Virus record (IMG/VR): IMGVR_UViG_3300033993_003332
Coordinates: 1-64,000 of that record
Length of the DNA stretch: 64,000 nucleotides
DNA from: a virus
Direction: 5' to 3' (one strand)
Shown here: positions 14,327 to 64,000 of the stretch, piece after piece
How the letters are laid out: every line of letters starts with the position of its first letter
Numbering within the stretch: position 1 is the stretch's first letter
Notes under the pieces: generated by a model
What the model was told of the DNA's origin: nothing
Databases searched by the model: none
The model's input: the letters and a program-made list of their open reading frames with translations, nothing else
Position numbers and translations under genes: made by a program

Positions 14327-16315
14327 ATGATTATAACTTATTTCCGTAGTTCGTCTTATAATGCCCATTCTATGTGCGAACAACAATATTTTTTTGAATA
14401 TGTACTAGGATGGAGGGGCCCAAGTGGACAAAAGGCGGATAAAGGAACAATAGTCCATAAAGTTTTAGAAATTCTTGCCATGATCAAACAAGGTCAGCAA
14501 GATAAATTATCTCATATAAATGATGACGAATTCTTAGGTCTTATAGATATAAATGACTATAGTCTTAATACCATAATAGAAAAAGTATACAAGCATTATA
14601 GTACCGCTAATAGTCATCATACTTGGACTCTAAAAGATTATAAGGACTGCTATAATTGGGTTTACAAGGCTATAGAATTTAATGGCGGTATGTTTGATCC
14701 TAGAAATCGCACCATTCTTAGACCAGAACAACACTTTGATTTGGTAATAGAAAAACCATGGGCTAAATACGAGTATAATATTAATAATCAAAAACTAGAT
14801 GGATATTTGGGCTTAAAAGGCACTATAGATCTTATAACTTTGGCTAATGATAATACTATTGAGGTCATAGATTGGAAAGGATTGCCATTAGATACAAAAT
14901 TACCTACTCTTGACGGATGGACAACAATTGCAGATATAAATGTGGGATGTAATGTCTTTGATCAATACGGTAATATATGTCGCGTTGTTGGAAAATCAAA
15001 AGTCAAAACAAAAAAATGTTTCAGAGTAACTTTTGATGACAAAACATCGGTAATTTGTGACGATGAGCATTTATGGAAATTATCTAATGGTGAAACGGTA
15101 TCTATACAGGATCTAGTTATTGGCGATACTATTAATGTGACAAAACCATTAAAATGTAATGAACAATCCCTACCAATAGATCCTTATCTATTAGGAGTCT
15201 GGTTAGGAGACGGAAGAAATAGAGGCTGCGAGATTAGTGGCAATGATACTGAAATTTTTGAAGAAATACAAGCAAGAGGTTATGAGCTAGGAAAAATTCA
15301 AAATGATAAAAGATCAAAAAATAAGACAGTATCGATCCTAAATGTGACAAAAATACTAAAATCTTTAAATCTATTGAATAATAAACATATACCAAAAATT
15401 TATTTGAGAGCATCTTTTCAACAAAGGCTAGACTTACTAAGGGGTTTGATGGATACAGACGGAAATGTAAATCCAATTAGAAAACAAACTGTGTTTACTT
15501 CTTGTAATAAAAAACTATCCGACGATGTTAAAGACCTACTTTTAACCCTTGGGCAAAGACCGAATCAAGCGTGTATTAAAAGAGATACAAATTACAAAAA
15601 AAACGTAATCATATATCCTATTTCGTTTCGTCCAATTGACATTAATCCTTTTCTATTGAGCAGGAAAAAAGAACTTGTGGATGTAAATTGGGGATCTGGA
15701 AGATCTAGGGTTAGACGAGTTTCTAAAATAGAAGAATCGATTATACAAAAAACTCAATGCATTTCCGTAGACAGTCCAGACAATACTTATCTGTGTACAG
15801 AAAATTATATTCCAACACATAATACTGGACGAAGACTAGATTGGGCAACAGGACAAGAAAAAACACAAGAAAAATTAGAAAAAGATCCTCAACTCAAAAT
15901 CTATCATTATGCTATTAAAAAACTGTATCCTCATATAGAGAATGTTATTTTTTCCATATATTTTATTAATGATGGTGGTCCTTTTTCTATGGTTTTTCAT
16001 GATAGCGATCTTGCCGATACTGAAAATATGTTACGTCAAAAATTTGAAATCATTAAACAAACTAAACGACCACGATTGAATAAAAGTTGGATGTGTAATA
16101 AATTATGTCATTTTGGTAAGACTACATTTGCTAATACTAATATTGAGCCATTGAAAGAGTATAGGGATGGACAAATATGTCAAAAAGATTCGATCATGAC
16201 AAAATGTGAACAAGTGAAGCACGACCTTGAACTTTACGGGATCGATGCTACAATGAGTATGTACAAGCACCCGAATCATTCTTTTGGATCCTACAAAGCA
16301 CCCGGAACCGTATGA
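14327..16315 (+). CDS. Cas4/RecB-like PD-(D/E)XK nuclease with an intein
   Basis: A 662-residue precursor that, after removal of a 315-residue intein, would give a 347-residue nuclease. The nuclease has D168 (KGTIDLI) and D182-W-K184 as PD-(D/E)XK residues, then QLKIYHYAIK as motif IV. It has Cys residues that could hold an Fe-S cluster: one near the N-terminus (SMCEQQYFFEY) and a C-terminal set (WMCNKLC, then C in GQIC and TKC), as in Cas4 and AddB. The intein lies directly after the catalytic Lys184, within the conserved DWK-TGR motif. The natural role is probably end resection or single-strand processing during recombination. The stop overlaps the DNA polymerase start by four bases. Confidence 0.85.
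   Translation: MIITYFRSSSYNAHSMCEQQYFFEYVLGWRGPSGQKADKGTIVHKVLEILAMIKQGQQDKLSHINDDEFLGLIDINDYSLNTIIEKVYKHYSTANSHHTWTLKDYKDCYNWVYKAIEFNGGMFDPRNRTILRPEQHFDLVIEKPWAKYEYNINNQKLDGYLGLKGTIDLITLANDNTIEVIDWKGLPLDTKLPTLDGWTTIADINVGCNVFDQYGNICRVVGKSKVKTKKCFRVTFDDKTSVICDDEHLWKLSNGETVSIQDLVIGDTINVTKPLKCNEQSLPIDPYLLGVWLGDGRNRGCEISGNDTEIFEEIQARGYELGKIQNDKRSKNKTVSILNVTKILKSLNLLNNKHIPKIYLRASFQQRLDLLRGLMDTDGNVNPIRKQTVFTSCNKKLSDDVKDLLLTLGQRPNQACIKRDTNYKKNVIIYPISFRPIDINPFLLSRKKELVDVNWGSGRSRVRRVSKIEESIIQKTQCISVDSPDNTYLCTENYIPTHNTGRRLDWATGQEKTQEKLEKDPQLKIYHYAIKKLYPHIENVIFSIYFINDGGPFSMVFHDSDLADTENMLRQKFEIIKQTKRPRLNKSWMCNKLCHFGKTTFANTNIEPLKEYRDGQICQKDSIMTKCEQVKHDLELYGIDATMSMYKHPNHSFGSYKAPGTV
14879..15823 (+). mobile_element. 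class 3 intein with LAGLIDADG homing endonuclease
   Basis: Residues 185-499 of the nuclease precursor form an intein. The junctions are DWK|GLPLD and PTHN|TGRR, so residue 1 is Gly rather than Cys or Ser, the end is His-Asn, and the +1 residue is Thr. The three residues that define class 3 inteins are present: W250 two residues after the block B His (DEHLW), C478 at block F position 4 (TQCISVD), and T497 at block G position 5 (PTHN). Known class 3 inteins begin the reaction by direct attack of the block F Cys, so a non-nucleophilic residue 1 is expected. Two LAGLIDADG motifs, YLLGVWLGDG and LLRGLMDTDG, supply the homing endonuclease. Confidence 0.9.
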
Positions 16316-18180
16316 CTTATTCAGTACTACATTGTCATTCTCATTTTTCATTATTGGATGGCTTAAATAGACCAGAGCAAATTGCCACCAGATGTGCCAA
16401 ACTGGGCATAAAATCATGCGCCTTAACAGATCATGGTAATATTGCTGGATCGGTACAGTTTTATCAGAAAATGAGATCTAAGAATATTAAACCTATTCTT
16501 GGATGCGAATTATATATTTGTGAAGATGATCCATCAATACAAACAAAAGAGAATGCTTCCTTGTCGCATTTTCTCGTACTTGCTAAAAATTTAAAAGGCT
16601 GGAAAACACTCATCAAAATAGTCTCGGAATCAAATAGGCCAGATTATTTTTACCATAAGCCAAGACTAAGTATCAAAAAATTATCAGAATTACTAGATGG
16701 TAACATAATAGGTGTTTGTGGTCATTTGGGATCGACCCTATCGGATATTATCTTAAAAGATCAGGATAATAGTATTTCTAATGGTCTTTCTTTTATAGAC
16801 AATATGAAAACTATATTCGGTGATAATAATTTTTATTTGGAAACACAATTATTCGATAAAGACTATCTAAAAGAACAAGTCTATTTAACAGAAACGATTA
16901 GGCGACTATCCGAATTAAGTAAAATTAAGGCAGTATCTACTCCCGATGCTCATTATTGCGAACAAGACGACGCTATAGACCAAAGGATTCTTCTTTGCAA
17001 TAATTTAAAAACAACACTATCTGATATTAATACTAAATTAATTAATAATCAAAGTATTCCTATGGAGTGCTTCTTTAAAAGTGATAAATATTATATCCTA
17101 TCTCCAGAAGAGATGACGAACCTACATAGTCCACAGGAAATAGAAAATACAATTTTTGTCGATAGCTTAATAGAAGAGTTCGACATCTTATCTGCTCCAA
17201 AATTGCCTAATTTTGATTGTCCAGAAAACTATGATCCTGATGAATTTTTAAGGGAATTGTGTAGAGTTGGATGGAAAAATAAAATCATTCCAAATATTCC
17301 AAAGGATGATCATCAAGTTTATGTAGATAGAATAAAATATGAGTTAGATATATTACAAGGTGCTAGTTTATCTAGTTATTTTTTAATTGTGCAAGATATA
17401 GTCAACCATGTTAGACATAATAACTGGCTACCTGGACCGGGCAGAGGAAGTGGGGCTGGGTGTCTGGTTTCTTACCTTGTTGGTATCACAGATATTGATC
17501 CCATGAAATATGATTTATTATTCGAAAGATTTTATAATGCTGGTAGAAATACTAAAGATAGAATCTCTATGCCAGATATTGATATAGATATTCCAATCGA
17601 TAAACGCGAACAAGTATTAGAATACATAAAAAATAAATATGGACACAGTAAAGTATCTCAAATGATTACTTTTAATACTATGAAAGGTAGAGGGGCACTA
17701 AAAGACGTATTGCGAGTATATGGTAATATTAGTTTCGAAGAGATGAATACTATTACTAAGTTTATTCCTGACGAAGCTAAGATAGCGGACGAGCTTCAAG
17801 AAATGAAAGAAGATACTGGAGAAGCATCTATTATCAGATGGGCTCTAGAAAATAATACGGATAAACTAAAAGAATGGTGCTATATATCTGAAGAGGACGG
17901 GACTTTATCTGGGCCTCTATCTAAAAGATTTGAACAGGCAATAAGATTGGAGGGAACAAAATCTAATCAAAGCAAACATGCTGCTGGTGTAATAATAGGT
18001 ACTCAAGACCTTGCGTCTTTATGCCCGATGGTCTATGATAACAGAAATGATCAGCTTATCGCTGGCATGGAGATGAACGATCTAGAGAGTTTGGGTCTAA
18101 TAAAATTTGACATATTGGGTATCGCATATTTGGATAAAATTATGTCAGTATCAGAATATTTAAAACACGGAGAACTATAA
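16312..18180 (+). CDS. dnaE: DNA polymerase III alpha subunit, N-terminal part
   Basis: A 622-residue N-terminal part of a family C replicative polymerase. The PHP domain has H7-C-H9, D40-H41 and E66, plus PDAHY, so its metal site looks more complete than in E. coli DnaE. The palm follows, with PGPGRGSGAGCLVSYLVG and the catalytic Asps D422 and D424 in PDIDIDIP and D600 in KFDILG, equal to D401, D403 and D555 of E. coli. The protein ends 22 residues after D600. The fingers and everything after are encoded by a separate gene at 19059-20672. The stop codon is directly followed by the ATG of a 60-residue gene. Confidence 0.92.
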   Translation: MTYSVLHCHSHFSLLDGLNRPEQIATRCAKLGIKSCALTDHGNIAGSVQFYQKMRSKNIKPILGCELYICEDDPSIQTKENASLSHFLVLAKNLKGWKTLIKIVSESNRPDYFYHKPRLSIKKLSELLDGNIIGVCGHLGSTLSDIILKDQDNSISNGLSFIDNMKTIFGDNNFYLETQLFDKDYLKEQVYLTETIRRLSELSKIKAVSTPDAHYCEQDDAIDQRILLCNNLKTTLSDINTKLINNQSIPMECFFKSDKYYILSPEEMTNLHSPQEIENTIFVDSLIEEFDILSAPKLPNFDCPENYDPDEFLRELCRVGWKNKIIPNIPKDDHQVYVDRIKYELDILQGASLSSYFLIVQDIVNHVRHNNWLPGPGRGSGAGCLVSYLVGITDIDPMKYDLLFERFYNAGRNTKDRISMPDIDIDIPIDKREQVLEYIKNKYGHSKVSQMITFNTMKGRGALKDVLRVYGNISFEEMNTITKFIPDEAKIADELQEMKEDTGEASIIRWALENNTDKLKEWCYISEEDGTLSGPLSKRFEQAIRLEGTKSNQSKHAAGVIIGTQDLASLCPMVYDNRNDQLIAGMEMNDLESLGLIKFDILGIAYLDKIMSVSEYLKHGEL

Positions 18181-18363
18181 ATGCTAACAAAAACTTTAGA
18201 TCAAGTTGCTGCTGGCGAAATATTCAAGGTTAATAATATTAACTATGTCAAAATCGCCGAGGTTCGTGTCAGTTGTTGCAGAACCGTGAACTGTCACGTT
18301 CTAGAAGATAGTAATCAAAGGACTTTTTTCCCAGGAAACACAGTTGTGGAGACTAATGGCTAA
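18181..18363 (+). CDS. small Cys-containing protein between polymerase parts
   Basis: A 60-residue protein starting MLTKTLDQVAAGEIFKV, with a compact beta-rich pattern and VSCCRTVNCHVL in the middle, ending FFPGNTVVET. It begins at the base after the polymerase N-part stop and overlaps the exonuclease start by eight bases. The hydrophobic strand pattern suggests a small beta-barrel. The three Cys and a His could bind a metal. Its position between the polymerase pieces suggests a polymerase-associated or single-strand binding role, but there is no direct evidence for it. Confidence 0.6.
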   Translation: MLTKTLDQVAAGEIFKVNNINYVKIAEVRVSCCRTVNCHVLEDSNQRTFFPGNTVVETNG

Positions 18364-19057
18364 TTTACAAAAAATTTGTGTATTCGATTTAGAAACGGAC
18401 GGGGCTAATCCCGATATTTGTAGCCCCGTTCAAATCGCTGCTGTTATTATCGATCCTTATAAATTAGAAATAATCAAAGATTCAGAATTTAATATCAATC
18501 TAAAGCCCCAAGCAATACAAGATAATCCAGAATATATATATGATGATTCAGATGTTCTGGATTTTCATGCCAAAGTTAGAGGATGTGATAAAACAAAAAT
18601 CTTAGAAGATTGGAGATCTTTCCAGAAACAAGACAGTGGATGGAAAATGTTTGTATCATATTTGGAAAAATATCATATAAGATCTGATAAAAAATCTTGC
18701 TTTACAGCTCCTATTGCTGCTGGCTATAATATTAATAGATTCGATCTAAGAATTATAGATAGATTAAGCATAAAATATAATAATGTCAATAAGGAGGGAC
18801 GAACATCTCTATTTTATCCACGAGATGTTATTGACTTAATGAACGTTATTTTTTATTGGTTTGAAGGTAATAATGAGCTTAAAAACTATACACTTGATAA
18901 TGTTAGAGAATATTTAGGATTAGGAAATAGTGGCTCTCATGATGCTCTAAATGATGTTAGGGCAACAGCTGATATTTTGATAAGGTTTATGAAATTACAT
19001 AGAAATTTATCGAATAAGGTAAAATTCAGAAACGCCTTTGCTCTTGCAAAAAATTGA
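18356..19057 (+). CDS. DnaQ-like 3'-5' exonuclease
   Basis: A 233-residue DEDD exonuclease. Exo I is D11-L-E13 (VFDLETDG), Exo II is N-R-F-D in AGYNINRFDLR, and Exo III is the H-x4-D of SHDALNDVRATAD, a DEDDh arrangement. This is the proofreading-type fold of polymerase III epsilon. The gene sits precisely between the two polymerase III alpha genes and ends one base before the ATG of the C-terminal part, so it is probably the proofreading subunit of this polymerase. The ATG at 18356 overlaps the preceding small gene; an upstream TTG at 18344 is less likely. Confidence 0.87.
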   Translation: MANLQKICVFDLETDGANPDICSPVQIAAVIIDPYKLEIIKDSEFNINLKPQAIQDNPEYIYDDSDVLDFHAKVRGCDKTKILEDWRSFQKQDSGWKMFVSYLEKYHIRSDKKSCFTAPIAAGYNINRFDLRIIDRLSIKYNNVNKEGRTSLFYPRDVIDLMNVIFYWFEGNNELKNYTLDNVREYLGLGNSGSHDALNDVRATADILIRFMKLHRNLSNKVKFRNAFALAKN

Positions 19058-19058
19058 A

Positions 19059-20672
19059 ATGACTCAATATTTTACTTTTGATTGTGGATGTAAGTTCAAG
19101 GTTTTGGAATATACCTCAGAAGGAATTCCAAAAATAGAATTTACAGGTAAGTTGAGCGATCTTAATCTTGATTGTTCAAAAACATGGTCTATGATCGGAG
19201 ATGGTAATACCAAGGGTGTATTTCAACTAGAATCAAGGTTAGGTTCTAGTATGGCTAAAAAATTAAAACCAGAGAATATAGAACAACTATCTGCCCTAAT
19301 TAGTATTATGAGGCCAGGATCTTTGGAAGCTTATAGAGATGGTAAAAGTATTAGTCATCATTATATAGACAAAAAGAATGGTCAAGAAAGCTTAGACTAT
19401 TTTCACCCATCCCTTGAGCCATCATTAAAATCAACCTATGGAGAGATGATATATCAAGAACAGGCCATGCAAATCGCGCAAGCGGTGGCTGGTTTTGATC
19501 TACAAGAGGCAGATATGCTGCGTAAAGCAATTGGCAAAAAGAAGCCAGAAGAAATGGCTAAGATCAGGGTAAAGTTTAAGGATGGTGCTAAAAAACTGAA
19601 TATAGTCAACGACGAAGAAATAGACGAAATATTTAGTTGGATTGAAAAAAGTCAAAGATATTCTTTTAACAAAAGCCACGCTGTGTCATATGCTATGAAT
19701 GCATATTCTTCGGCTTATGCAAAAGCTCATTTTGCTAAAGTATTTTTTGCATCATACCTTAAATTTGCAAAAGATAAAATGGATCCTCAAAAAGAAATAA
19801 AAGAACTAATACGTAATGCAACAGAAATGGATGTGATTGTATGTGTTCCTGATGTAAGAAAGCTTAATAAGCATTTTACTATTAGCGATGATAAAATATA
19901 TTTTGGTCTTACCGATATTAAGGGTGTCGGTTATTCTGTTTATGATAAATTATTAACTATTATTAAAGACTTAGATATAAATAATATATCTTGGAATACA
20001 TGTTTAGTTAAAGTTTTAACAAAAATTAATTCCACAGCAGCTAAAGCATTAATATCATGTGGCGCTTTAGATCATCATAATATCACCCGTACAAAAATGT
20101 TATTTGAATACGATATAATATCTGAATTAACTTCTAGAGAATTAGATCTATTAGACTTGGAAAAGTCGTCTATTGCACAATCTTTACATGGTTTATTGAC
20201 ACAAAATAAAATTAATATTAAGCGAAAAAGTAGCATACAAAATCTTATCAATTTATATAACAATCCGCCATATTCATTAGATGATAAAATAGAATGGCTA
20301 TCTGATACAGAAAATGCTTTATTAGGGGCCTCTATAACTTGTTTTAAGATAGATTCTTATGATATTAGTATGACAAATTGTGATTGTAAAGCTTTCAAGA
20401 CTACCAACGCATCAAAAAATATTATTTTAGCAGGAGAAATTAGTTCCATCAACTTTGTCAAAACAAAAAACGGCAAAAATCCTGGGGCTGAAATGGCCTT
20501 TGTCACAATAGAGGATCAATTTGCATCACTAGACTCAGTAATATTATTTCCTGAGCAATTATCAAAATATCGTAACTATCTATTCGATGGTAATGTACTA
20601 ATATTCTTAGGTAATAAAAGTTCTAAAAAAGATTCTTTTATAGTGGAGAAATGTTTTATACCAAGATCTTGA
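19059..20672 (+). CDS. dnaE: DNA polymerase III alpha subunit, C-terminal part
   Basis: A 537-residue second part of the family C polymerase. After about 50 residues with no match in DnaE (MTQYFTFDCGCKFKVLE and onward), it joins the family at SMIGDGNTKGVFQLESRLG, the fingers. It continues through YGEMIYQEQAMQIAQ, ADMLRKAIGKKKPEE and the SFNKSHAVSYAMNAYSSAY block, then a helix-hairpin-helix area (SCGALDHHN) and an OB-fold (ILAGEISSINF to the end). All three catalytic Asps are in the other part. The ATG at 19059 is one base after the exonuclease stop; a TTG at 19038 is less likely. The two parts must associate to form an active polymerase. Confidence 0.9.
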   Translation: MTQYFTFDCGCKFKVLEYTSEGIPKIEFTGKLSDLNLDCSKTWSMIGDGNTKGVFQLESRLGSSMAKKLKPENIEQLSALISIMRPGSLEAYRDGKSISHHYIDKKNGQESLDYFHPSLEPSLKSTYGEMIYQEQAMQIAQAVAGFDLQEADMLRKAIGKKKPEEMAKIRVKFKDGAKKLNIVNDEEIDEIFSWIEKSQRYSFNKSHAVSYAMNAYSSAYAKAHFAKVFFASYLKFAKDKMDPQKEIKELIRNATEMDVIVCVPDVRKLNKHFTISDDKIYFGLTDIKGVGYSVYDKLLTIIKDLDINNISWNTCLVKVLTKINSTAAKALISCGALDHHNITRTKMLFEYDIISELTSRELDLLDLEKSSIAQSLHGLLTQNKINIKRKSSIQNLINLYNNPPYSLDDKIEWLSDTENALLGASITCFKIDSYDISMTNCDCKAFKTTNASKNIILAGEISSINFVKTKNGKNPGAEMAFVTIEDQFASLDSVILFPEQLSKYRNYLFDGNVLIFLGNKSSKKDSFIVEKCFIPRS

Positions 20673-46521: not shown

Positions 46522-49500
46522 TTAAATTGTTGGTACGCAAGTAGTACTTATATATGTACCTTGTACAGCTGGGTGGCACGGATATATCAATTCATTTGGT
46601 TGAGAGCACGAATATCCTTGGTTACAAACACTTTGATATAAGACCCATCTATATGCAGTATAAGGAGATGGAAGAGATTCTAAAACAACAGCTACTTCAG
46701 AATCATTAGTGCTTGATAATCCCCCATAAACATCACAATAATAGTAACATTCCCCAGCATTCACGGGTGGAGGTGGGGGTGGTGGCGGAGGCGGCGGCGG
46801 AGGCGACGATGGCTCATTACATCTACTACAATACGATCCACTAGGACCATATACATATAATTCTACAACATGTGTTACATTAGCCCTTAATGGAGTTAAG
46901 GCACAATTAGGAGCACAATTACCACAATCATTATAGTGGCAAGTCATATGAGTAATTGTAACAGAGGAGCTTAATGGTAAAGAACTACTGGAGGCGGTGT
47001 TTAGTGAATCTTTAGGTAATTGACCTGTCCACGTTACAGCCACCGGGCCTGAACCACATCCAGCATCTTGATAGTATATTTGGTTAAGAGGTTTGATAAA
47101 TAATATAGCATTTTGATTGCTTTGTAATATACCTTTTAGCGAAACTGTTATAGATCCATTTGCATTAGTTACACAATTAAATATACTCAATGGTCCTGTT
47201 GCCAATCCTCTTGTTGGGGTCGGAGTTGGAGCAGGAGTTCTTGTCGGTGTTACAGGATTAGATGATCCGCATGGTCCTGCTAGTACTATACCATTTCCAG
47301 AACTATATCGAGGTATATATAATGAGCCAGTAGTCTGATCGACATCTAAATGTCCAAGATATTGAGGACCTATTTTGTTAATAATAGATCTGTTCTGCTT
47401 AGTTTCTAAATTAACGCCAACAACATAATTATCCGTTAAATTATTATTATAGGTTATATAATATCCTACTTTATTATTTTTATCTATCTTTAAGAAATTT
47501 TCCACGTTATAAGAGGATCCAAGAAGATCGTTAACTATAGATATGGTACTTAGTAAAGATGGATTTTGTTGATAATACGAAGTTGATTGATTTAATTCAT
47601 AAATTCTAATAGAGCTTTGTGATCCGGCCTGTCTAGCATCAAATGAATATAATTTATTATTAAATATATATGGAGTAACTGATATCGATCCAGGAGAAAA
47701 ATTATTTATGGTCGTAACTGCGTATGTCGAACCATCTATTATAAACAATGTATGCTCAGGAGAGGCTCCAACATGATTACTAACTACTACATAAATCTTA
47801 TTATTATTTTCATCAACAGATACATTTCCATTGCCAAAAAGTTTATTTAACGAAATTGATGTTTCTATAGTATCTGTTGAGCAATTTATAGCTGTTAGGA
47901 TTGCATTACTATTAGAATCATATCTCATAATAAAAATTTTATTAGTCACACTATTTATTGCTAAGGCTGATGGATGTATTTTGCTTTGCAAAGATATGGT
48001 ATTAACTAATGAATCTGTTGATCCATTTATTACCAGTACAGAGCCATTATTAGGTGTTCCATAATTTATAAGATAAAGTTTATTTAAAGACTCATTAATT
48101 ATTAAATTACCGAATTCAGCGCCTGCTGGTCCAGATATCGAGGATGTTATACTTTTAGTTATACTATTTACAACTCTAATTCTATCACTAATTACATCAA
48201 CAAGATATAATTTTTTACTACTATTATTAAAGTAACAGCCATAAGCTTCTGTGGTTGGAAATAATACCTCTGTAGAATGAGTACATTGTGTTAAAGGTAA
48301 TGGTGACGAAGATGGTGTTCTCGTCGGAGTTCTTGTTGGGGTAACAGACGGAACAACAGCGGCCACGGTTGATGTTGGAGTGACCGTTATTTGAGGAGTT
48401 CTAGTTAATGTTATGCTTGGTGTTGGTGTGGGTGTTGGAACAACACATTCATAACCAGAACATCTTAGTGCTACTCTACCAGCATTATTGTATACAGTAT
48501 CTACGACCCGTGTTCCTGCATTATTAATTTGCATAGTTTGAAATATATTCGCGCTACGAATATTATCGCTTAGTTTTTCTTTATATATCCAATTATTATT
48601 TACATATTCATATATTATTATTCTTTCATTGATAATACTTATAGGATCTTTATGCATAATTGCTAAAATATTATTAGTTTCAGAAATTGCTGCTCTACCA
48701 TCCTCATTTGTAGCAAAAATAGATGTGATGGGAGATCCCTTTAGGGTCCATTGATTATTTATTAGAGTATAAACTTCTACTCTACTTCGTCCGCTAGCCA
48801 CGAATGTATCATTACTTTTTGCGTCAATATACCATAGTATATTACCAGCTGATGGAGAAAAAGATGTACTTATTGTTGCCGATTTAACCCATGCATTATT
48901 AATCCAATCATAAACTCTTACTATACCAGTAGTAATACCAATAAATAATCTACTACCATCAGGACTTAATTTAATATTCGGATAATATCCTACTAAATCA
49001 GTAGAATTTTCGCCAAATATTGAGAATCCTTTTTGTGTCCATGTTCCATTAATAAATTCGTATACTTTAATTTTACCAGCTGTTGCTTGTTCGGCCCCGG
49101 TGGAGCCAACATAGTCTGGACTACCAATAGCAATAGTATTACCGTCACTGCTCATACTTACAATAGAACCTAGACCCTCCCCAGTATTTATTCCTAATAT
49201 ATCTGAACCTTTTTTAGACCAAGATGTACCATTCCACATATATACAGTAACTTTTCCTTTATATTGTCCAACAGTAGAATATATACTTGTTGAATGTCTT
49301 GGTGTTCCTATCGCTACTGTGGTACCAGCAGTATCTGTATCTATAGAATCATTACCGCTAAATGCAGTAACAATCTCGGCATTATCTAATGTTATCCTAC
49401 TAGCTCTTTCGATCCAGGCTGTATTGTTCCAATCATATACTACTACCGTATTAACAAATAATCCAGCTATTGTGGATCCGTTTCTACTTAAAGAATATGT

Positions 49501-52500
49501 TACTAATCCACGATTACTAAGTTGTGGTTCCAATAGTTCTCCTAATTGTTTGTAAGAGCATACGGGCAACATAGTTGGTGTTGGAGTAACTCTGGGGGTA
49601 GATGTAGGAACAGGAGTTCGTGTTGGGGTAGGTGATGGCGTTGGAGACGGTACTGCTTGACCTATCGGTAATACGCACACACAATCAATCGCTGCTCCAA
49701 AGCAACCACAATTAGCGCATGTGCTTTCAAATCTGATTGTTGTTGTTGTGCTTGAAGCGGTAAAATCTATTATTTCTGCGATCCATCCCATGCTTTCGTA
49801 TGATTCAAATGTTGTATTGCTAGGATCAAAAGAGAAATTATATTCTTCAGCATAGGTGCCTGTGATAACAACCTTAAATGTTCTTATAACATTAATATTT
49901 CCATAATTATTACCAGATTTTTTAAATGATAGTCTATAAACACCATTTACAATCGTTGGTATATTTTGTTCAATATAACCAGGACTACAAGAATTTAAAT
50001 CAACCCATACTTTAATTGGTTGATTTGTCCCATAGAAGTGCAACGAATGAACATCAACATTATTGGTTACCCAATTAGCTGCTGTTCCTAAATTCATTGA
50101 TGGTACACTAATCTCGAAATCACCATTAACAACCAAATTATTAGCACAAGATGGACAATCAGGAACCACCGGTATAGTAATTGGTGGAGGACAAACAAAG
50201 TTAGTATCGATTTCTTGACCACGTCCAGATGATGTTGCACTAGACGGATCTGGTAAATTATTGGATTTGGTGGCATATGTAAAATATGCAGCATTAGCGG
50301 ATCCGCCAGAATAGTATGCCGCTTTATACCATTCATTTTCAGTAGGAATAGCATATTTTGCTGCCGGATTTCTTGTTATCGATGACTGACTCATGTCATA
50401 CGCGCCATTTTCTGTGATTCCATAGTCATTAGAGTCTTTAGAATCTATTTTTCCATTACTAAGCCAATTACAATATCTAGCTAAATCAAACCATGTTATA
50501 TAATTTACTGGTTTATCTCCCATATTTAATTTTGTTGTATAATAATATAAAGAATCTTTTTCGGTGCGTAATATACCTCCTCTAGGATCGTTGCTCATAG
50601 CTTCTTTATATAGATTATATCTATCATAAACACTAGCAACAGAATTTAAAAATTGTGCATATTCACAATTGGTTAATAGATATTTTTTGATTGCGTATCT
50701 ATAAACGACAGAGCCGTATCCATTAGTATCAGCAACATTATTAACATCATCAATTAATGCATAATTAATAAGATCTAACGATCTAGTATCTCTAACTATT
50801 ATTCGTCCACCAATAGTAGCATTAGCTGATATTGGAGACTGTGGACTTCTATAGCCTGATCCAAGTTCTAGACTATTGGATATCCATGATCCTCCTCTAA
50901 CAATTCTACTACTACTAACCTGACCCTCTGTCCATTCATTTAAATTACCAGTTTGATCATACGTTCCATAAAAACTACTACTACCATTTGTTCCGACAGT
51001 TGTTACATTACCTGTCTGATCGTTCCACACAGCAACAGAACCATAATTAGCAGTTGATACCAAATTGAAACTTGCTGGCGAAGCTGGCTCATTAAATGAT
51101 TCATTACAAGAAATACATTGTTTTGTTGGATAATGTAATTTGTAAAAAATCTCGTATTCATGACATACTATTAAATTATTAAGCTGAATTTGCATAACAT
51201 CAGTAGTTAATAATGTACAGTTTTCTCTATTAGCAGAACTCCAACAATCTTTAATATCTTGATACGATGAAGGAGATGTTTGTATTCTATAATTAATATT
51301 TAATCTATTATTTCCTTTTTGTGGCTTTAGATAATTTTGCTGTATAATATTATCCGATGTTAAGGTTTTAAATGATAAATTTTGTGCAGAAGATCCTGAT
51401 ACTTGTAAACAGCTTTGAGCAACTTGATTTGTAGCAGCAGCGTATATCCAATCGAGCCATCTTTCTGACGAGCAATTAAATTCTACAAACTGATATTGTA
51501 AAGTTTCTACAATATATTCTATAAACTCATTAATCCCCGGTTCTATATCGGCCCTATTCATTGAACCGCTTACGTCTACAAATATTAAAATTCTAATTGG
51601 GGTCTCTTGATCTGTTTGTTCAATAATCGGTAAGAAGTGAGTTTCGAATTGTGTTAAAATATCGTTATAAGTTGTTGGTCTACTTACTTTAACCACCCTG
51701 TCTGTTCCAAAAGGAAGTTTAGGAACAGCATTAGATGGATATATCCATTGTGTACTATCTGCTGGAGCTAATACTATAAATCTTTCAGCATCTACAGCTC
51801 CATTTTCTATTAGAGATGTAACATTATTGGTATCTTCGACCCAGTCTTTTCCTATAGTACCTAGGAGTCCAACATAGTCCGGATTTGCTTCGTCAATAAA
51901 TATCATGATAAAATCTGTTGGTAAAATAACAGCTGGTGGTATGTATATACCAGTTACTTCTGGTCCAATAAATTCGCAATGTTTAGTTAATGTTACTACT
52001 CTAAAATCATAATATTCTCCTAATTCTAATCCTGTTATAGATGTCGATGCTGTATCTAATATAAAAGCGTCTCTAATCCATGATGATGAACTAGTTTTAT
52101 ACTCTATAACATATCCTTCTATATCTGGATACTGTGGTATTTGATCTTCCCAGCTCAACGATACAATATTATCACTAACCTCGTAATTAGTAATTATTGA
52201 TGATGCTACAGTAGTAGCGCCACACTCAACAAAGTCCGGACACTCCAAAATAAATGATTCGGTTCTTGATACTCCACTAGTTTTATCTTTTATGATAGTT
52301 TCCAGTATAAATTGTTTTAACTCAACATTTTTAGTAATGCCAACAAAAGCATTTTGTCTAGTATTAGATGCTTTAAAAGTAAAAAATTCTTTATCTAAAT
52401 ATGCTCTATTACTAAAATCTGCATCTAAGCATTTATCTGGTGACGGAGTAGGAGTTGGTGTGGGGGTGACGCTGGGCGTTGGTCCAAATACTGGTAATGT

Positions 52501-55500
52501 TGGTGGCGGGGTTGTGGGAGGAGAAACTAAATTGCAATCATAGTCTGTAAATTGTACTTTTCCATCCGGCTTGCCATTACCAAAACCATCTGCTTCTACG
52601 CACTGAAATAAATTAGAGAAAGATCTATCTGGTAAATCAGATTGTGTGGGCCATCTCCAATATCCAGCATTGGTACCTCCTCCTTTATAGTATGCTGCTT
52701 TATACCATTCACTATAGCTTGGTAAAAAATATTTAGCATTAGCGTTTCTAACAATAGGTTGGTCAAAATTTTCTGCTGTTGTTCTGCCATTAAGTGTATA
52801 CGCGCCATCTTCTGTTGTTGTATTGTCTTGGCTACCATTAGGCTTTCCATTGTGTAACCAATTACAAAATCTAGCGGCAGAAAACCAGTTAACAAATACA
52901 ACTGGTTTATTATTCATAGGCTGCGGTCTATTGTTTGCAGAAGTTGTTTTTGAACTATATGTATAATTACCAGACGTTCCACTTCTAACAATACCTCCTT
53001 TGGTATTGCTTATCATATTAGTATCGTATAATTTATAGATATCTGTTTTTGCTACAGCATTAAGAAATTCTACATATTGACAATTCGTTACTTCGTACTG
53101 ACCAATTTTATATTCATAAGATACAGCCCCTACAGGATCTGTGGTAAAAATTGGATTATTAGGATTACCAGCATCTCCAACAGTAACAAAATATGGTAAA
53201 TTATTAGGATTAGTTAAACTCGCTATTCTAAATCCATGACTAGCTACTTTTAGTGTCGGATCTTTAGCATGATAGGATGTTTTTGTGTAATCAAGCTCAT
53301 TATCTGGACTATCAAATCCTCCACCCAGACACCATCTTCTCGTTACTTTACGACCACCCACTACCGAAACATGATGTTCTTCTGTCCATTCTTCAGCGTT
53401 CCCACCCTGATCATATGTACCATATGCGCTAGGTCCACCATTAGAGCCAACTGTAGTAACATTACCATTGTCAATCCAAATTGGGCCTTTGGCACATAAT
53501 TTTAGATTTGCACTATTAGGACCGGGAGGAAAAGTTAAAGAATATACACTATAAATACCTAAACTATTAACAGCTCGACATGTGATATATAAAATTCTTG
53601 GAGTTAATTCGTAGTAAAAAATATTAACAGGATCGACAGCATCAAAATCTATGGTGTCTTGTACAGTATCGTTGAGTAGATTGATTACAGACAAGGAATT
53701 TGAGTCTGTATTACACACATATAATTTTTTAGCAAAATTAATCAATGCCATAGACGTTGGCGATGATCCAACAGCGATTGTTTTTTCTATGGTTCTTGTT
53801 GTTAGATTAAGAACACTAATATTATTACTAAGATAATTTGTAATATATCCTTTATCATTTAATGCTACAAATGACCATGGTCTTAAACCACTAGAATTAA
53901 TATTGCTAATAACACTATCGTTAACCGGATCTATGATACTAATAGAATTAGATTCTGTATTACAAACATAAATTAAATTATTGTGAAGATACAGGGATCT
54001 CGGACCATTCTGTACTGTTATTGATGTTATAAATTGATATGTTGTGGCATTAAAAATATTGATAGTAGAATTGGGCGAACTTACTGTGCCAGTATTAGTA
54101 ACATAAATTTTATTATTTAGATATAGCAAGCTAGCAGGACTGGTACCGACATTCAATATAGTTTGTATAACAGTGTTATTAGTAGCATTTATAATACTTA
54201 TACTATTATCATCAGAATTAATAACATAAATTCTATTATCTATAGAATTACTAATAATATCAGTTGGGTTATTGCCAACAGATACGGTGCTAAGTTGTGT
54301 TTTTGTTGCGAGATCAACAATACTAATAGTGTCGCTGTCACTATTTGTAACATAAGCTCTTGTTCCAAATAGAAAAGTGGCGCTGTTAGGATTTGATTGA
54401 ACTGTAACTAACTCCAAATCTTTTATTGGAGGTAATAGAGGAGGTGGCGGTGGTGGAGGCGGTGGAGGAGGTGGTGGCGGTGGAGGAGGTGGTGGCGGTG
54501 GAGGAGGAGGCGGAGGTGGCGGAGGAGGAGGTGGAGGAGGGGGTGGTGGACTAGCTATCAAAATACTAGCAGCTCCGGTAACATCTAGTCTGCCACCAGT
54601 ACTAATCGGGGCAGCGCCATTGGTAGCAAAAGCTGGGGTTGGTATTGCGCTAAAAAGAATAGCGTTTTTAATTTGTGCGGCAGATACGTTTGGAAAAATA
54701 CTTGCCAATAACGCAACAGCTCCGGCAACATGGGGACAGGCCATACTAGTTCCACTAATAGAAAAATAGTCACCATTCTTCCATGTGCTTAGTATGCCAC
54801 CTTCTTCAGTCTGGTCTCCTCCTGGTGCTGCTATATCAACATTAGCTAAGCCATAATTAGAAAATATACTCCTAGCCCCAGTAATAGTCATGCTTGCTAC
54901 AGATATAATACCATCTGTTCCGCTTGGATCGTTCCATGTATAAGAGGATGGATATTTTGGTAATGAATCATTATTTGTTCCATTATTAGCAGCAGCACAT
55001 ACGCTAATTATACCTTGAGCATAAGCGGCTTTCATAGCATCTAATTGAGATTGAGAAAATGATCCGCCGGCATAACTATGATTAATTACAACAATATTTC
55101 TGCCTTTTGGATCATTATTTTTAAATAATTGTTTTAATGATGTTGTATAATTTACAGCTAGTATAATTTTAGCCAAACTGCTTGTAAGTTCAAGACTACT
55201 ACATGGTGGTGGTTTGTCACTTCTACAAGAGAATATTTTTCCATTCAATAGACTAACTCTTTTACAAACTCCTGTCACTCCCAAATTATTGTCACCAAAA
55301 GCTCCTATTGTACCAGCAACATGGGTTCCATGACCATTATAATCATTATATCCTTCGTTATTGGTGCTAAAATCTCCTTCTAGATTATTATTAGAATCAT
55401 ATGTGAATCTAAGATTACCAGCTAAATCTGCATGAGTAATCATATTATTTAATAATATGCCAGTATCTATAACCACAGCATAAACATCATGAGTTCCTAT

Positions 55501-55941
55501 ATGTCCTCGATTCCATAGGGGGACAACATTTATATGAAAATTGCCTCTCGCTGGATTTAGACCCCATAATTCGAACCATCTACTATCATTACTCAAAGAA
55601 TTATAACTTTTATTAATTATTGGTTCTTCGAATCTAATTATTTCATCAGCTTCAAAAAATGCTATATTTTTATTATAATTCAATGTATTTTGTGTTTCAA
55701 AAGTATTTTGCCTAACCAAAAACATCCCAGGAAGACCCAATCCTCTAATAACAGTATATTCAGGTCCTAAAATAGTATAAATATCATTTATAGATTCCAT
55801 TCTAGATATTGCTTCTTCAGTAAGTCTAATAATAAAATTACTAGAATACTCTGATTGAGAATTAATTAATATTGATTCTATTTTAGTATCAACAAATTGA
55901 GTAAACCATATCTCTGATACTTTATTATAATCACTATTCAT
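46522..55941 (-). CDS. giant subtilisin-headed multidomain adhesin (3139 residues)
   Basis: Domain order: a possible I9-type propeptide (about 30-110); an S8 peptidase with D159 (VIDTGI), H204 (GHGTHVAG) and S399 (GTSMACPH); 37 prolines (465-501); a YVTN-like propeller (510-800); FGE-like domain 1 (809-1113); a Thr/Pro linker; FN3 (1235-1330); a vWA domain with DVSGS near 1455; FGE-like domain 2 (1630-1917); an internal carbohydrate-binding-like domain (about 1930-2080); Thr/Pro linkers; an FG-GAP-like propeller (2128-2497); a second YVTN propeller (2551-2887); 13 prolines; and a Cys-rich C-terminus. Both FGE-like domains have swapped halves and lack the catalytic Cys pair of true FGE. It is probably a virion surface protein for receptor binding, with the protease acting in maturation or on host surface proteins. 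Confidence 0.75.
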   Translation of the reverse strand: MNSDYNKVSEIWFTQFVDTKIESILINSQSEYSSNFIIRLTEEAISRMESINDIYTILGPEYTVIRGLGLPGMFLVRQNTFETQNTLNYNKNIAFFEADEIIRFEEPIINKSYNSLSNDSRWFELWGLNPARGNFHINVVPLWNRGHIGTHDVYAVVIDTGILLNNMITHADLAGNLRFTYDSNNNLEGDFSTNNEGYNDYNGHGTHVAGTIGAFGDNNLGVTGVCKRVSLLNGKIFSCRSDKPPPCSSLELTSSLAKIILAVNYTTSLKQLFKNNDPKGRNIVVINHSYAGGSFSQSQLDAMKAAYAQGIISVCAAANNGTNNDSLPKYPSSYTWNDPSGTDGIISVASMTITGARSIFSNYGLANVDIAAPGGDQTEEGGILSTWKNGDYFSISGTSMACPHVAGAVALLASIFPNVSAAQIKNAILFSAIPTPAFATNGAAPISTGGRLDVTGAASILIASPPPPPPPPPPPPPPPPPPPPPPPPPPPPPPPPPPPPPLLPPIKDLELVTVQSNPNSATFLFGTRAYVTNSDSDTISIVDLATKTQLSTVSVGNNPTDIISNSIDNRIYVINSDDNSISIINATNNTVIQTILNVGTSPASLLYLNNKIYVTNTGTVSSPNSTINIFNATTYQFITSITVQNGPRSLYLHNNLIYVCNTESNSISIIDPVNDSVISNINSSGLRPWSFVALNDKGYITNYLSNNISVLNLTTRTIEKTIAVGSSPTSMALINFAKKLYVCNTDSNSLSVINLLNDTVQDTIDFDAVDPVNIFYYELTPRILYITCRAVNSLGIYSVYSLTFPPGPNSANLKLCAKGPIWIDNGNVTTVGSNGGPSAYGTYDQGGNAEEWTEEHHVSVVGGRKVTRRWCLGGGFDSPDNELDYTKTSYHAKDPTLKVASHGFRIASLTNPNNLPYFVTVGDAGNPNNPIFTTDPVGAVSYEYKIGQYEVTNCQYVEFLNAVAKTDIYKLYDTNMISNTKGGIVRSGTSGNYTYSSKTTSANNRPQPMNNKPVVFVNWFSAARFCNWLHNGKPNGSQDNTTTEDGAYTLNGRTTAENFDQPIVRNANAKYFLPSYSEWYKAAYYKGGGTNAGYWRWPTQSDLPDRSFSNLFQCVEADGFGNGKPDGKVQFTDYDCNLVSPPTTPPPTLPVFGPTPSVTPTPTPTPSPDKCLDADFSNRAYLDKEFFTFKASNTRQNAFVGITKNVELKQFILETIIKDKTSGVSRTESFILECPDFVECGATTVASSIITNYEVSDNIVSLSWEDQIPQYPDIEGYVIEYKTSSSSWIRDAFILDTASTSITGLELGEYYDFRVVTLTKHCEFIGPEVTGIYIPPAVILPTDFIMIFIDEANPDYVGLLGTIGKDWVEDTNNVTSLIENGAVDAERFIVLAPADSTQWIYPSNAVPKLPFGTDRVVKVSRPTTYNDILTQFETHFLPIIEQTDQETPIRILIFVDVSGSMNRADIEPGINEFIEYIVETLQYQFVEFNCSSERWLDWIYAAATNQVAQSCLQVSGSSAQNLSFKTLTSDNIIQQNYLKPQKGNNRLNINYRIQTSPSSYQDIKDCWSSANRENCTLLTTDVMQIQLNNLIVCHEYEIFYKLHYPTKQCISCNESFNEPASPASFNLVSTANYGSVAVWNDQTGNVTTVGTNGSSSFYGTYDQTGNLNEWTEGQVSSSRIVRGGSWISNSLELGSGYRSPQSPISANATIGGRIIVRDTRSLDLINYALIDDVNNVADTNGYGSVVYRYAIKKYLLTNCEYAQFLNSVASVYDRYNLYKEAMSNDPRGGILRTEKDSLYYYTTKLNMGDKPVNYITWFDLARYCNWLSNGKIDSKDSNDYGITENGAYDMSQSSITRNPAAKYAIPTENEWYKAAYYSGGSANAAYFTYATKSNNLPDPSSATSSGRGQEIDTNFVCPPPITIPVVPDCPSCANNLVVNGDFEISVPSMNLGTAANWVTNNVDVHSLHFYGTNQPIKVWVDLNSCSPGYIEQNIPTIVNGVYRLSFKKSGNNYGNINVIRTFKVVITGTYAEEYNFSFDPSNTTFESYESMGWIAEIIDFTASSTTTTIRFESTCANCGCFGAAIDCVCVLPIGQAVPSPTPSPTPTRTPVPTSTPRVTPTPTMLPVCSYKQLGELLEPQLSNRGLVTYSLSRNGSTIAGLFVNTVVVYDWNNTAWIERASRITLDNAEIVTAFSGNDSIDTDTAGTTVAIGTPRHSTSIYSTVGQYKGKVTVYMWNGTSWSKKGSDILGINTGEGLGSIVSMSSDGNTIAIGSPDYVGSTGAEQATAGKIKVYEFINGTWTQKGFSIFGENSTDLVGYYPNIKLSPDGSRLFIGITTGIVRVYDWINNAWVKSATISTSFSPSAGNILWYIDAKSNDTFVASGRSRVEVYTLINNQWTLKGSPITSIFATNEDGRAAISETNNILAIMHKDPISIINERIIIYEYVNNNWIYKEKLSDNIRSANIFQTMQINNAGTRVVDTVYNNAGRVALRCSGYECVVPTPTPTPSITLTRTPQITVTPTSTVAAVVPSVTPTRTPTRTPSSSPLPLTQCTHSTEVLFPTTEAYGCYFNNSSKKLYLVDVISDRIRVVNSITKSITSSISGPAGAEFGNLIINESLNKLYLINYGTPNNGSVLVINGSTDSLVNTISLQSKIHPSALAINSVTNKIFIMRYDSNSNAILTAINCSTDTIETSISLNKLFGNGNVSVDENNNKIYVVVSNHVGASPEHTLFIIDGSTYAVTTINNFSPGSISVTPYIFNNKLYSFDARQAGSQSSIRIYELNQSTSYYQQNPSLLSTISIVNDLLGSSYNVENFLKIDKNNKVGYYITYNNNLTDNYVVGVNLETKQNRSIINKIGPQYLGHLDVDQTTGSLYIPRYSSGNGIVLAGPCGSSNPVTPTRTPAPTPTPTRGLATGPLSIFNCVTNANGSITVSLKGILQSNQNAILFIKPLNQIYYQDAGCGSGPVAVTWTGQLPKDSLNTASSSSLPLSSSVTITHMTCHYNDCGNCAPNCALTPLRANVTHVVELYVYGPSGSYCSRCNEPSSPPPPPPPPPPPPPVNAGECYYYCDVYGGLSSTNDSEVAVVLESLPSPYTAYRWVLYQSVCNQGYSCSQPNELIYPCHPAVQGTYISTTCVPTI
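54439..54549. repeat. 37-codon polyproline tract, (NGG)n on the plus strand
   Basis: The minus strand encodes 37 prolines in a row using CCT, CCA, CCG and CCC in mixed order, so the plus strand reads NGG 37 times. Mixed codons show that selection keeps the protein sequence rather than simple slippage alone. The G-rich strand could fold into G-quadruplexes, and the polyproline run would depend on the EF-P system for efficient translation. Confidence 0.9.
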
Positions 55942-62301: not shown

Positions 62302-64000
62302 CTATGAATAAAAATATGGACCCCTTGCTCTTCCAATTTCGCCGCACCAGAATGGTAAATTATTAGTATCAATTAATTCTTCACTATCGCAGGACAAATC
62401 TATCATATCTTCTGTACCATCAGGAATTAATGGTGGAGAAGTTTCTCCGTATACGCCGTCCAATCTCGGAACAGAAGTTTTATTACCCCAAAACGTAGTA
62501 TTTGCTGTTCCATCTTTTTGTCTTGGCAAAGGAGGTGGAACATTTGGTAATGGAGCAGTCGGCCCAGTCGTCTGAGTTGTTCCAGCGTCTTCATCATCCG
62601 GATCTGGTGGTATAACAGGATCCCATCCGATATCTGTTAATCTAGACTTAACAGTACCATCTTTTACAAATATCTTATCAACAACCAACCATCCACTGAT
62701 CGTCACATCTCCATATAAAGTTCTTGGTGTCAAAGAATTTGTTCCGACATCTTCGCTTGCAATTAGATACGGCTCATCTGTATTAACAGTAACGACTGGA
62801 TATCCTGTAGTAACAACATTATTAAAATTTTGAAAATATGCTGCTTTATGCCATTGATGAATATCTGGTAAAAAGTATTTTCTAGTATTATTAGTCAGTA
62901 TTCTATAACTATTACTACCTACTGGCAATATGGTATATGCTCCGTCATTCAGTATCTCAGCAGTAGATTGAGATGATGTTAGTCCTGTCGGAGCGCCATT
63001 ATGAAGCCAGTTCATATATTTTAATGAATTAATATAACTAACAAAAGTTACTGGCTTATTACCCATATTTGATTTAATAGAATATGAATTATTAATACCA
63101 TTGGTGCTGAATATGATACCACCTTCTGGTTGGTTTGTCATATCAGAAATATACAGACCGCTACTAAATGGATCATTGCCGGTGGCAACAGCATTTAGAA
63201 AAATATTATATTGAGCATTTGTGACTTCATATTTACCTATTCTATAATTTTTATTAACTTTACCCAAATTATCAATAGGTACTAACGAATATGAATTTCC
63301 ATTTCTAAGATAAAGATTTCCGGTATCAGGTATATTGTCTCCATCTGTTACAATAACAAATTGAAGACCTAATATGGAACTTATAATATTATTATCTGTT
63401 TGTCCTTCGGTGCTTGCGACTCTAAATCCGATATGATCATGTCCACTATTAGCTGTTGCATATTCTATACTTTTTAGATATACTGATGGATCGTTTCCAA
63501 TTGCTGAGATTGTTTCAAAAGAGCCACCAGCGGCCATCTGGCTACTAGCGGTATATTCTTTTACTGCCGGATCTATCCATTCTGCGACGTTTCCATTTTG
63601 ATCATAAGTACCGTAATAACTATCTACTCCATTAGTGCCAACAGAAGAAACTATACCACTAAATAAATTATCAGTAGCATTATAGTTAAAATTAGCAGTG
63701 CTGAATGAACTGTTTATTCCACTGCCACCTGTATTTATAAGAATAGCAGCAATATCGTTAGCATTAGTAGCATAGGGTGTATAGATACCGGAAAATCTTT
63801 CTACAGAACCTATATTGGCGTAGACTTTAAGCGCTGGGCTAGGATCATTACCATAGATAGCAAAATTAATATCTTTTCTACCAGTATTAAATTCTGTGTC
63901 AACTAATGGTCTTATACTCAAAACATTAGAGCTTGAATCAGGGATTACTCCAACAACACTCTTTTGCATTGTTAAGTAACCAGCGCGAGTGATGGATACT
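62302..64000 (-). CDS. tail fibre-like protein with swapped-half FGE domain, partial
   Basis: The frame stays open through position 63999, so the gene starts beyond the right edge of the window and its visible part is about 566 residues. The first visible residues VSITRAGYLTMQ and LSIRPLVDTEFN match the domain in the 832-residue neighbour. Then follows a third FGE-like domain with halves exchanged: YYGTYDQNGNVAEW, GGSFE and GFRVAS first, later YRIGKYEVTNAQYNIFLNAV and KYFLPDIHQWHKAAYF. The C-terminal part is a Pro/Asp-rich linker (DPVIPPDPDDED, then PNVPPPLP) and a short Cys-containing tail. The ATG at 63969 is internal. Confidence 0.7.
   Translation of the reverse strand, partial: VSITRAGYLTMQKSVVGVIPDSSSNVLSIRPLVDTEFNTGRKDINFAIYGNDPSPALKVYANIGSVERFSGIYTPYATNANDIAAILINTGGSGINSSFSTANFNYNATDNLFSGIVSSVGTNGVDSYYGTYDQNGNVAEWIDPAVKEYTASSQMAAGGSFETISAIGNDPSVYLKSIEYATANSGHDHIGFRVASTEGQTDNNIISSILGLQFVIVTDGDNIPDTGNLYLRNGNSYSLVPIDNLGKVNKNYRIGKYEVTNAQYNIFLNAVATGNDPFSSGLYISDMTNQPEGGIIFSTNGINNSYSIKSNMGNKPVTFVSYINSLKYMNWLHNGAPTGLTSSQSTAEILNDGAYTILPVGSNSYRILTNNTRKYFLPDIHQWHKAAYFQNFNNVVTTGYPVVTVNTDEPYLIASEDVGTNSLTPRTLYGDVTISGWLVVDKIFVKDGTVKSRLTDIGWDPVIPPDPDDEDAGTTQTTGPTAPLPNVPPPLPRQKDGTANTTFWGNKTSVPRLDGVYGETSPPLIPDGTEDMIDLSCDSEELIDTNNLPFWCGEIGRARGPYFYS

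Follow-up and report, generated by a model that had tools for sequence, protein, structure and literature searches.

FGE-like domains with exchanged halves in uncultured phages: a probable circular permutation

Domains with swapped halves in the window

The window analysed here is the whole stretch of bases 1–64000 of an IMG/VR virus record, which is 65191 bp in total. The Pfam family PF03781 identifies six half domains in this record, which form three pairs (D1, D2, and D3), all on the minus strand. In each pair, the part corresponding to about model positions 153–254 is encoded ahead of the part corresponding to positions 34–139. Each of the three N-terminal halves alone exceeds the family cut-off of 23.3 bits, and the two proteins that carry them score 85.9 and 44.7 bits. 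A co-linear N half followed by a C half, as defined for PF03781, is found neither in D1, D2, and D3 nor in the 107 distinct domains described below.

D3 occupies positions 62746–63726 (minus strand). Its C-terminal half is encoded first (63412..63726, model 153–254) and reads SANF...YGTYDQNGNVAEW...GGSFE...GFRVAS in translation. The N-terminal half is encoded second and runs to the new C-terminus (62746..63411, model 34–123, E 9.5e-9); it reads FVIVTDGDN...YRIGKYEVTNAQY...NWLHNG...KYFLPDIHQWHKAAYF.... A first-pass annotation, made from the letters of the window, had proposed an FGE-like domain with exchanged halves at this place, and all the motifs it quoted are present on the minus strand in the order given. 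The D3 gene (62302..64000, minus strand) has a 962-aa open frame, and its 5' part extends past the window to the end of the record. Two other contigs hold the gene at full length, as a 1198-aa frame, and a scan with half profiles detected no FGE half in it besides the C and N halves of D3. A normal-order partner beyond the edge of the window is ruled out by this complete gene. One of the two (G001, 101 kb) comes from the same phage, with a D3 that is 100% identical, and it contains a further 1688-aa ORF with two additional permuted domains. On the 101-kb contig, the D3 gene follows immediately after a 4648-aa tape-measure gene, within the tail gene module.

D1 and D2 belong to a 3139-aa multidomain protein (46522..55941, minus strand), in which a subtilase domain, a YVTN/YNCE-like propeller, D1, FN3, and D2 were recognized by Pfam and translation. 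D1 (52603–53529, minus strand) consists of a C-terminal half at 53218..53529 (model 162–254) and, encoded second, an N-terminal half at 52603..53217 (model 36–137, E 1.2e-11). D2 (50212–51090, minus strand) has the same arrangement, with its C-terminal half at 50791..51090 (model 159–254) and its N-terminal half at 50212..50790 (model 35–139, E 3.6e-13). The claim that the reversed order recurs in two domains of another protein is thus borne out. The subtilase lies at the N-terminus of this protein, which also has propeller repeats, an extended poly-proline tract, and a segment, FVDVSGSM, that resembles a vWA/MIDAS site.

Elsewhere in the window, DNA polymerase III alpha (16312–20672, plus strand) is encoded by two ORFs and is split near profile position 612. 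A 237-aa ORF (18344–19057) lies between the two parts and may represent an intron, an intein, or the insertion of a homing endonuclease. For host assignment, the matches listed for the polymerase were all below 35% identity.

Order and completeness of the halves in phages and cells

Two scans of viral contigs yielded about 150 loci, for which the order of the halves was read per ORF using separate half profiles. The order was C-N in 80 viral ORFs and CNCN in ten, a few had more copies, and 14 were N-C. Removal of duplicates left 107 distinct permuted domains, spread over more than 60 IMG/VR contigs; as a rule, each stands alone in its ORF, and several of these records exceed 200 kb. When a normal-order domain was used as the query against viral contigs, 45 C-N ORFs were among the best matches, together with 36 N-C ORFs, most of them stand-alone proteins of about 300–400 aa and many on short contigs. 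Orthologous domains with 44–57% identity keep the same order in about 25 contigs, which rules out a chance fragment, as the first-pass annotation had argued, or an assembly artefact. That annotation spoke of a domain shared by several proteins of one phage; the permuted order holds, but the scope was drawn too small, as the swapped order extends beyond one phage and characterizes an entire phage lineage of the domain. Searches of cultured phages (tblastn with D1 and with the normal-order control) returned no relatives. A survey of 224 jumbo phages reported no FGS domains (PMC7824862), whereas several records of more than 200 kb in the present set do carry FGE-like domains.

For comparison with cells, 84,980 bacterial and archaeal genomes were scanned with the permuted alignment as the query, which biases the scan toward permuted matches. 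Of at least 565 cellular loci, the best 80 were read; these are mostly from Planctomycetota and Verrucomicrobiota, and their readable domains are arranged as NC in 83 cases, NCNC in 8, and NCNCNC in 1. No isolated C-N domain or CN-only ORF was found in these best 80 of at least 565 loci. At the level of sequence, permuted domains are widespread in uncultured phages, and the cellular relatives that were read keep the normal order. Runs of normal-order FGE ORFs of about 300 aa on short viral-classed contigs (L154, L155, L161, L252, and similar) are likely bacterial fragments. In L038, a permuted domain is spread over two frames, by a frameshift or an assembly error.

Measurement of the gaps between the two profiles describes the joint. 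The projected N-profile end and C-profile start are separated by a median of −2 aa in cellular domains (n=91). In permuted domains, the distance from the C end to the N start has a median of 2 aa and a 90th percentile of 24 (n=201). Since the halves abut in cellular domains, the permuted ones miss nothing. The chain is opened between YATQSDxxP and NSANYN, and the joint lies in the loop ahead of the GTYDQ segment, about 25–30 residues upstream of it, in agreement with the position proposed from the window. The parts are thus complete and swapped, the original termini are linked, and the new termini fall within one loop, as in a circular permutant. The profile matches show the swapped order, the completeness of both halves, and the short junction. 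In four loci (L051, L053, L055, and L058), a propeller-like insert of about 260 aa lies exactly between the C half and the N half, at the site of the fused original termini. A further arrangement is seen in L076 (ORF residues 830–1415) and in L135, where a complete normal-order FGE domain is nested in the N half of a permuted one, in the order C, start of N, [N-C], rest of N.

The closest known relatives are the secreted normal-order PF03781 (FGE-sulfatase) paralogues of Planctomycetota and Verrucomicrobiota; both permuted halves match this family above its cut-off. Almost all motifs are common to the two groups, namely VTVGD..N..D, IGKYEVTN.QY..FLNAVA, NWLHNG, EWYKAAYY, YATQSD, SANY, GTYDQ.GNV.EW, RGGS, and GFR. 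The phage domains differ from these paralogues in their swapped halves, their new termini at SDxxP and NSANYN, their new cysteine pairs, and their large multidomain phage carriers. Among known phage families, phrog_18508, labelled as a kinase, contains an FGE-like domain of which both halves match the permuted domains. Its profile has the normal order, unlike the phage domains described here, and matches them in swapped pieces. Only the FGE-like part matches, and the kinase annotation is probably mistaken.

Predicted structure and cysteines at the opened loop

Structure prediction was performed for D3 with AlphaFold2, using an alignment with 98 permuted domains. The model (62746–63726) has a pLDDT of 85.7 and a pTM of 0.88, and its low-confidence residues are found mainly near the ends; a normal-order phage domain from L054, modelled as a control, has a pLDDT of 96.8 and a pTM of 0.94. 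When the two were aligned per half, secondary structure agreed at 59 of 69 structured residues in the N half and at 14 of 16 in the C half. D3 is thus predicted to be one compact domain with control-like secondary structure in both halves, and not the two unrelated half domains that would have spoken against a permuted fold.

Foldseek with the normal-order control retrieved FGE/TvpA (E 1.3e-11), with TvpA as the best structural match and 1Z70 also matched. A sequential Foldseek search of PDB and BFVD with the D3 model found no FGE, and its best E of 0.4 is noise. This miss is expected, because the reported alignments span nearly whole chains and are defeated by a permutation; yet the N half of D3 alone (190 aa) might have matched, and no FGE match was obtained. 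When PDB sequences were searched with the permuted profile, FGE-fold chains were matched with their halves exchanged: query positions 33–96 aligned with residues 199–263 of 5AOH (CarF), and positions 183–266 with its residues 78–161. 5AOH appears in this search under the name Spore coat protein CotH, and TvpA is the third-best sequence match. The model, together with the co-varying cysteines at the opened loop described next, supports the prediction that the permuted halves fold as one closed domain.

Cysteines occur beside both new termini in a subset of the permuted domains. In a position-specific count that was defined after the sequences had been viewed and is thus exploratory, the cysteines of SANxxxC, near the new N-terminus, and of SDxxPxC, near the new C-terminus, were both present in 33 domains and both absent in 70, with 4 discordant domains. 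At least 3 of the 4 discordant cases are traceable to pattern matching or small shifts. In normal-order cellular domains, the two cysteines are found in 2 of 90 and 0 of 90 cases. The Fisher p of 5e-23 for co-occurrence ignores the relatedness of the sequences, and an earlier, loosely windowed count of terminal cysteines was non-significant (p 0.18). On the tree, the two sites undergo 17 and 16 changes; only 3 contrasts fall on well-supported branches, of which 2–3 are concordant and none opposed. In D1, the cysteine near the new N-terminus (SANLKLC) is encoded at 53494..53496 and its partner near the new C-terminus (NLFQCVEA), which is slightly shifted and was assigned by hand, at 52600..52602, both on the minus strand; D2 and D3 are without the pair. 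Because both sites are adjacent in the uncut loop, a disulphide between them would staple the opened domain, and we infer such a bond across the loop in the domains that bear the pair. The apparent joint gain and loss of the two cysteines supports a closed domain.

Putative function, alternatives, and origin

FGE (SUMF1, 1Z70) shows distant sequence similarity to both halves of the phage domains. In human FGE, the cysteine pair is C336/C341, with CxxxxC spacing. The phage domains, which are permuted, are without this catalytic pair, and a role in sulfatase maturation is not expected: CxxxxC was found in the C half of 1 of 103 permuted domains and of 0 of 88 cellular ones. The partner domains in the carrier proteins are subtilase, propeller, FN3, DUF285, FG-GAP, and RCC1-like domains. 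Mtd, TvpA, and TaqVP use FGE-type CLec folds as scaffolds for ligand binding, and Mtd is a phage receptor-binding tail protein (PMC6328139, PMC5006420). These proteins have the same fold subtype as the phage domains; they differ in their normal order, in a variable region located at the very C-terminal end, and in the reverse transcriptase encoded next to them. In the phage domains, the segment equivalent to the variable region sits in the first-encoded half, and no reverse transcriptase (PF00078) was found in 19 phage records, so that DGR diversification is unlikely and an assignment as a DGR variable protein was rejected.

Given the carrier domains, the neighbouring tape-measure gene, and the CLec scaffolds of Mtd, TvpA, and TaqVP, a ligand-binding role in the tail is the best inference, and the permuted domain is most likely a non-catalytic ligand-binding module of phage tail proteins that resembles C-type lectins. 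A short turn connects the original N-terminus with the original C-terminus, and the chain is opened at the ...YATQSDxxP / ...NSANYN loop. The attachment points would thereby be shifted to the loop side of the domain, which could then sit between other modules in an altered orientation, and the module may bind host-surface glycans or proteins as part of large tail-associated proteins. We assign a probability of roughly 0.83 to the joint reading of a closed circular permutant of an FGE-like domain, probably with one origin, that acts as a putative non-FGE ligand-binding tail module. The main claim of the first-pass annotation, a circularly permuted FGE-like domain, is supported.

The same halves could also be paired differently. 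In a domain-swapped assembly, the C half of one chain would pack with the N half of a neighbour in a probably multimeric tail protein; phage fibres are often trimeric, sequence alone cannot tell intra-chain from inter-chain pairing, and about 260 aa separate the halves in the four loci with an insert. This is unlikely, as the linker between C and N is usually a few residues long, the monomer model is compact at pTM 0.88, cysteines near one end of a domain co-vary with those near its other end, and single copies are found in proteins of widely differing make-up. It is highly improbable that the phage carries the domain as a catalytic oxidase (FGE- or sulfoxide-synthase-like): the fold family includes the enzymes FGE, EgtB, and CalU17 (PDB search), but CxxxxC is missing from 102 of 103 permuted domains, which rules out a catalytic FGE, the carriers are giant multidomain proteins (subtilase, FN3, propeller, DUF285, FG-GAP), and D3 adjoins the tape-measure gene.

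The units might, in addition, be remnants of tandem FGE repeats, formed by the C half of repeat 1 and the N half of repeat 2, with the outer halves overlooked or located in neighbouring genes. NCNC proteins do occur in Planctomycetota, Verrucomicrobiota, and others; their C1-N2 junctions (−3 to 62 aa) are as short as the permuted ones, and the D1 query aligns unbroken over such a junction in a tandem planctomycete protein. As a present-day arrangement, this is scarcely credible and is refuted by the lone C-N pairs and by the complete D3 gene, which holds C then N only: for 133 of the 201 permuted pairs, the ORF contains no further FGE half, and in multi-copy ORFs the preceding N half stands at a median distance of 331 aa. 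The normal-order neighbours that would have argued against a permuted domain are accordingly not present. As an evolutionary route to the permuted units, tandem repeats are likely. The permutation probably arose once. Cellular tandem copies already hold the same C1-N2 junction, which suggests a route in which a tandem duplication of the domain would have been followed by loss of the first N half and the last C half.

On a 73-domain tree, two changes are required to account for the permuted domains. When they were forced into one clade in a tree of 70 domains, the likelihood was 7.27 lnL better (p-AU 0.665). A single origin of the permuted domains is compatible with these results. The swapped order in these lake viruses looks like an old and successful rearrangement of a binding module rather than a broken fragment. 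A fuller scenario, to which we give slightly better than even odds, is that one ancient permutation produced a phage-specific binding module that radiated in large uncultured, mainly freshwater phages, with multiple copies across their tail proteins and disulphide re-sealing of the opened loop in some lineages.

Natural circular permutation of the FGE/CLec fold is not described in the non-subscription papers searched. This fold is a major receptor-binding scaffold of phages and DGRs. With a permuted clade, normal-order cellular relatives, and surviving tandem intermediates, the duplication route to permutation is directly testable, as is the role of the cysteines at the new termini. Annotation pipelines score the halves separately, and permuted domains can therefore pass as fragments.

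A few normal-order domains also occur in the same kind of phage protein, in L054 and L152. They group with cellular domains, to which they are up to 67% identical, and by this placement they are separate acquisitions. In the L054 ORF (residues 259–836), a permuted and a normal-order FGE domain are adjacent in one phage protein. The normal-order domain of L054 shares up to 67% identity with a Pirellulales domain, which suggests that it was acquired recently from a planctomycete; this group may be that of the host.
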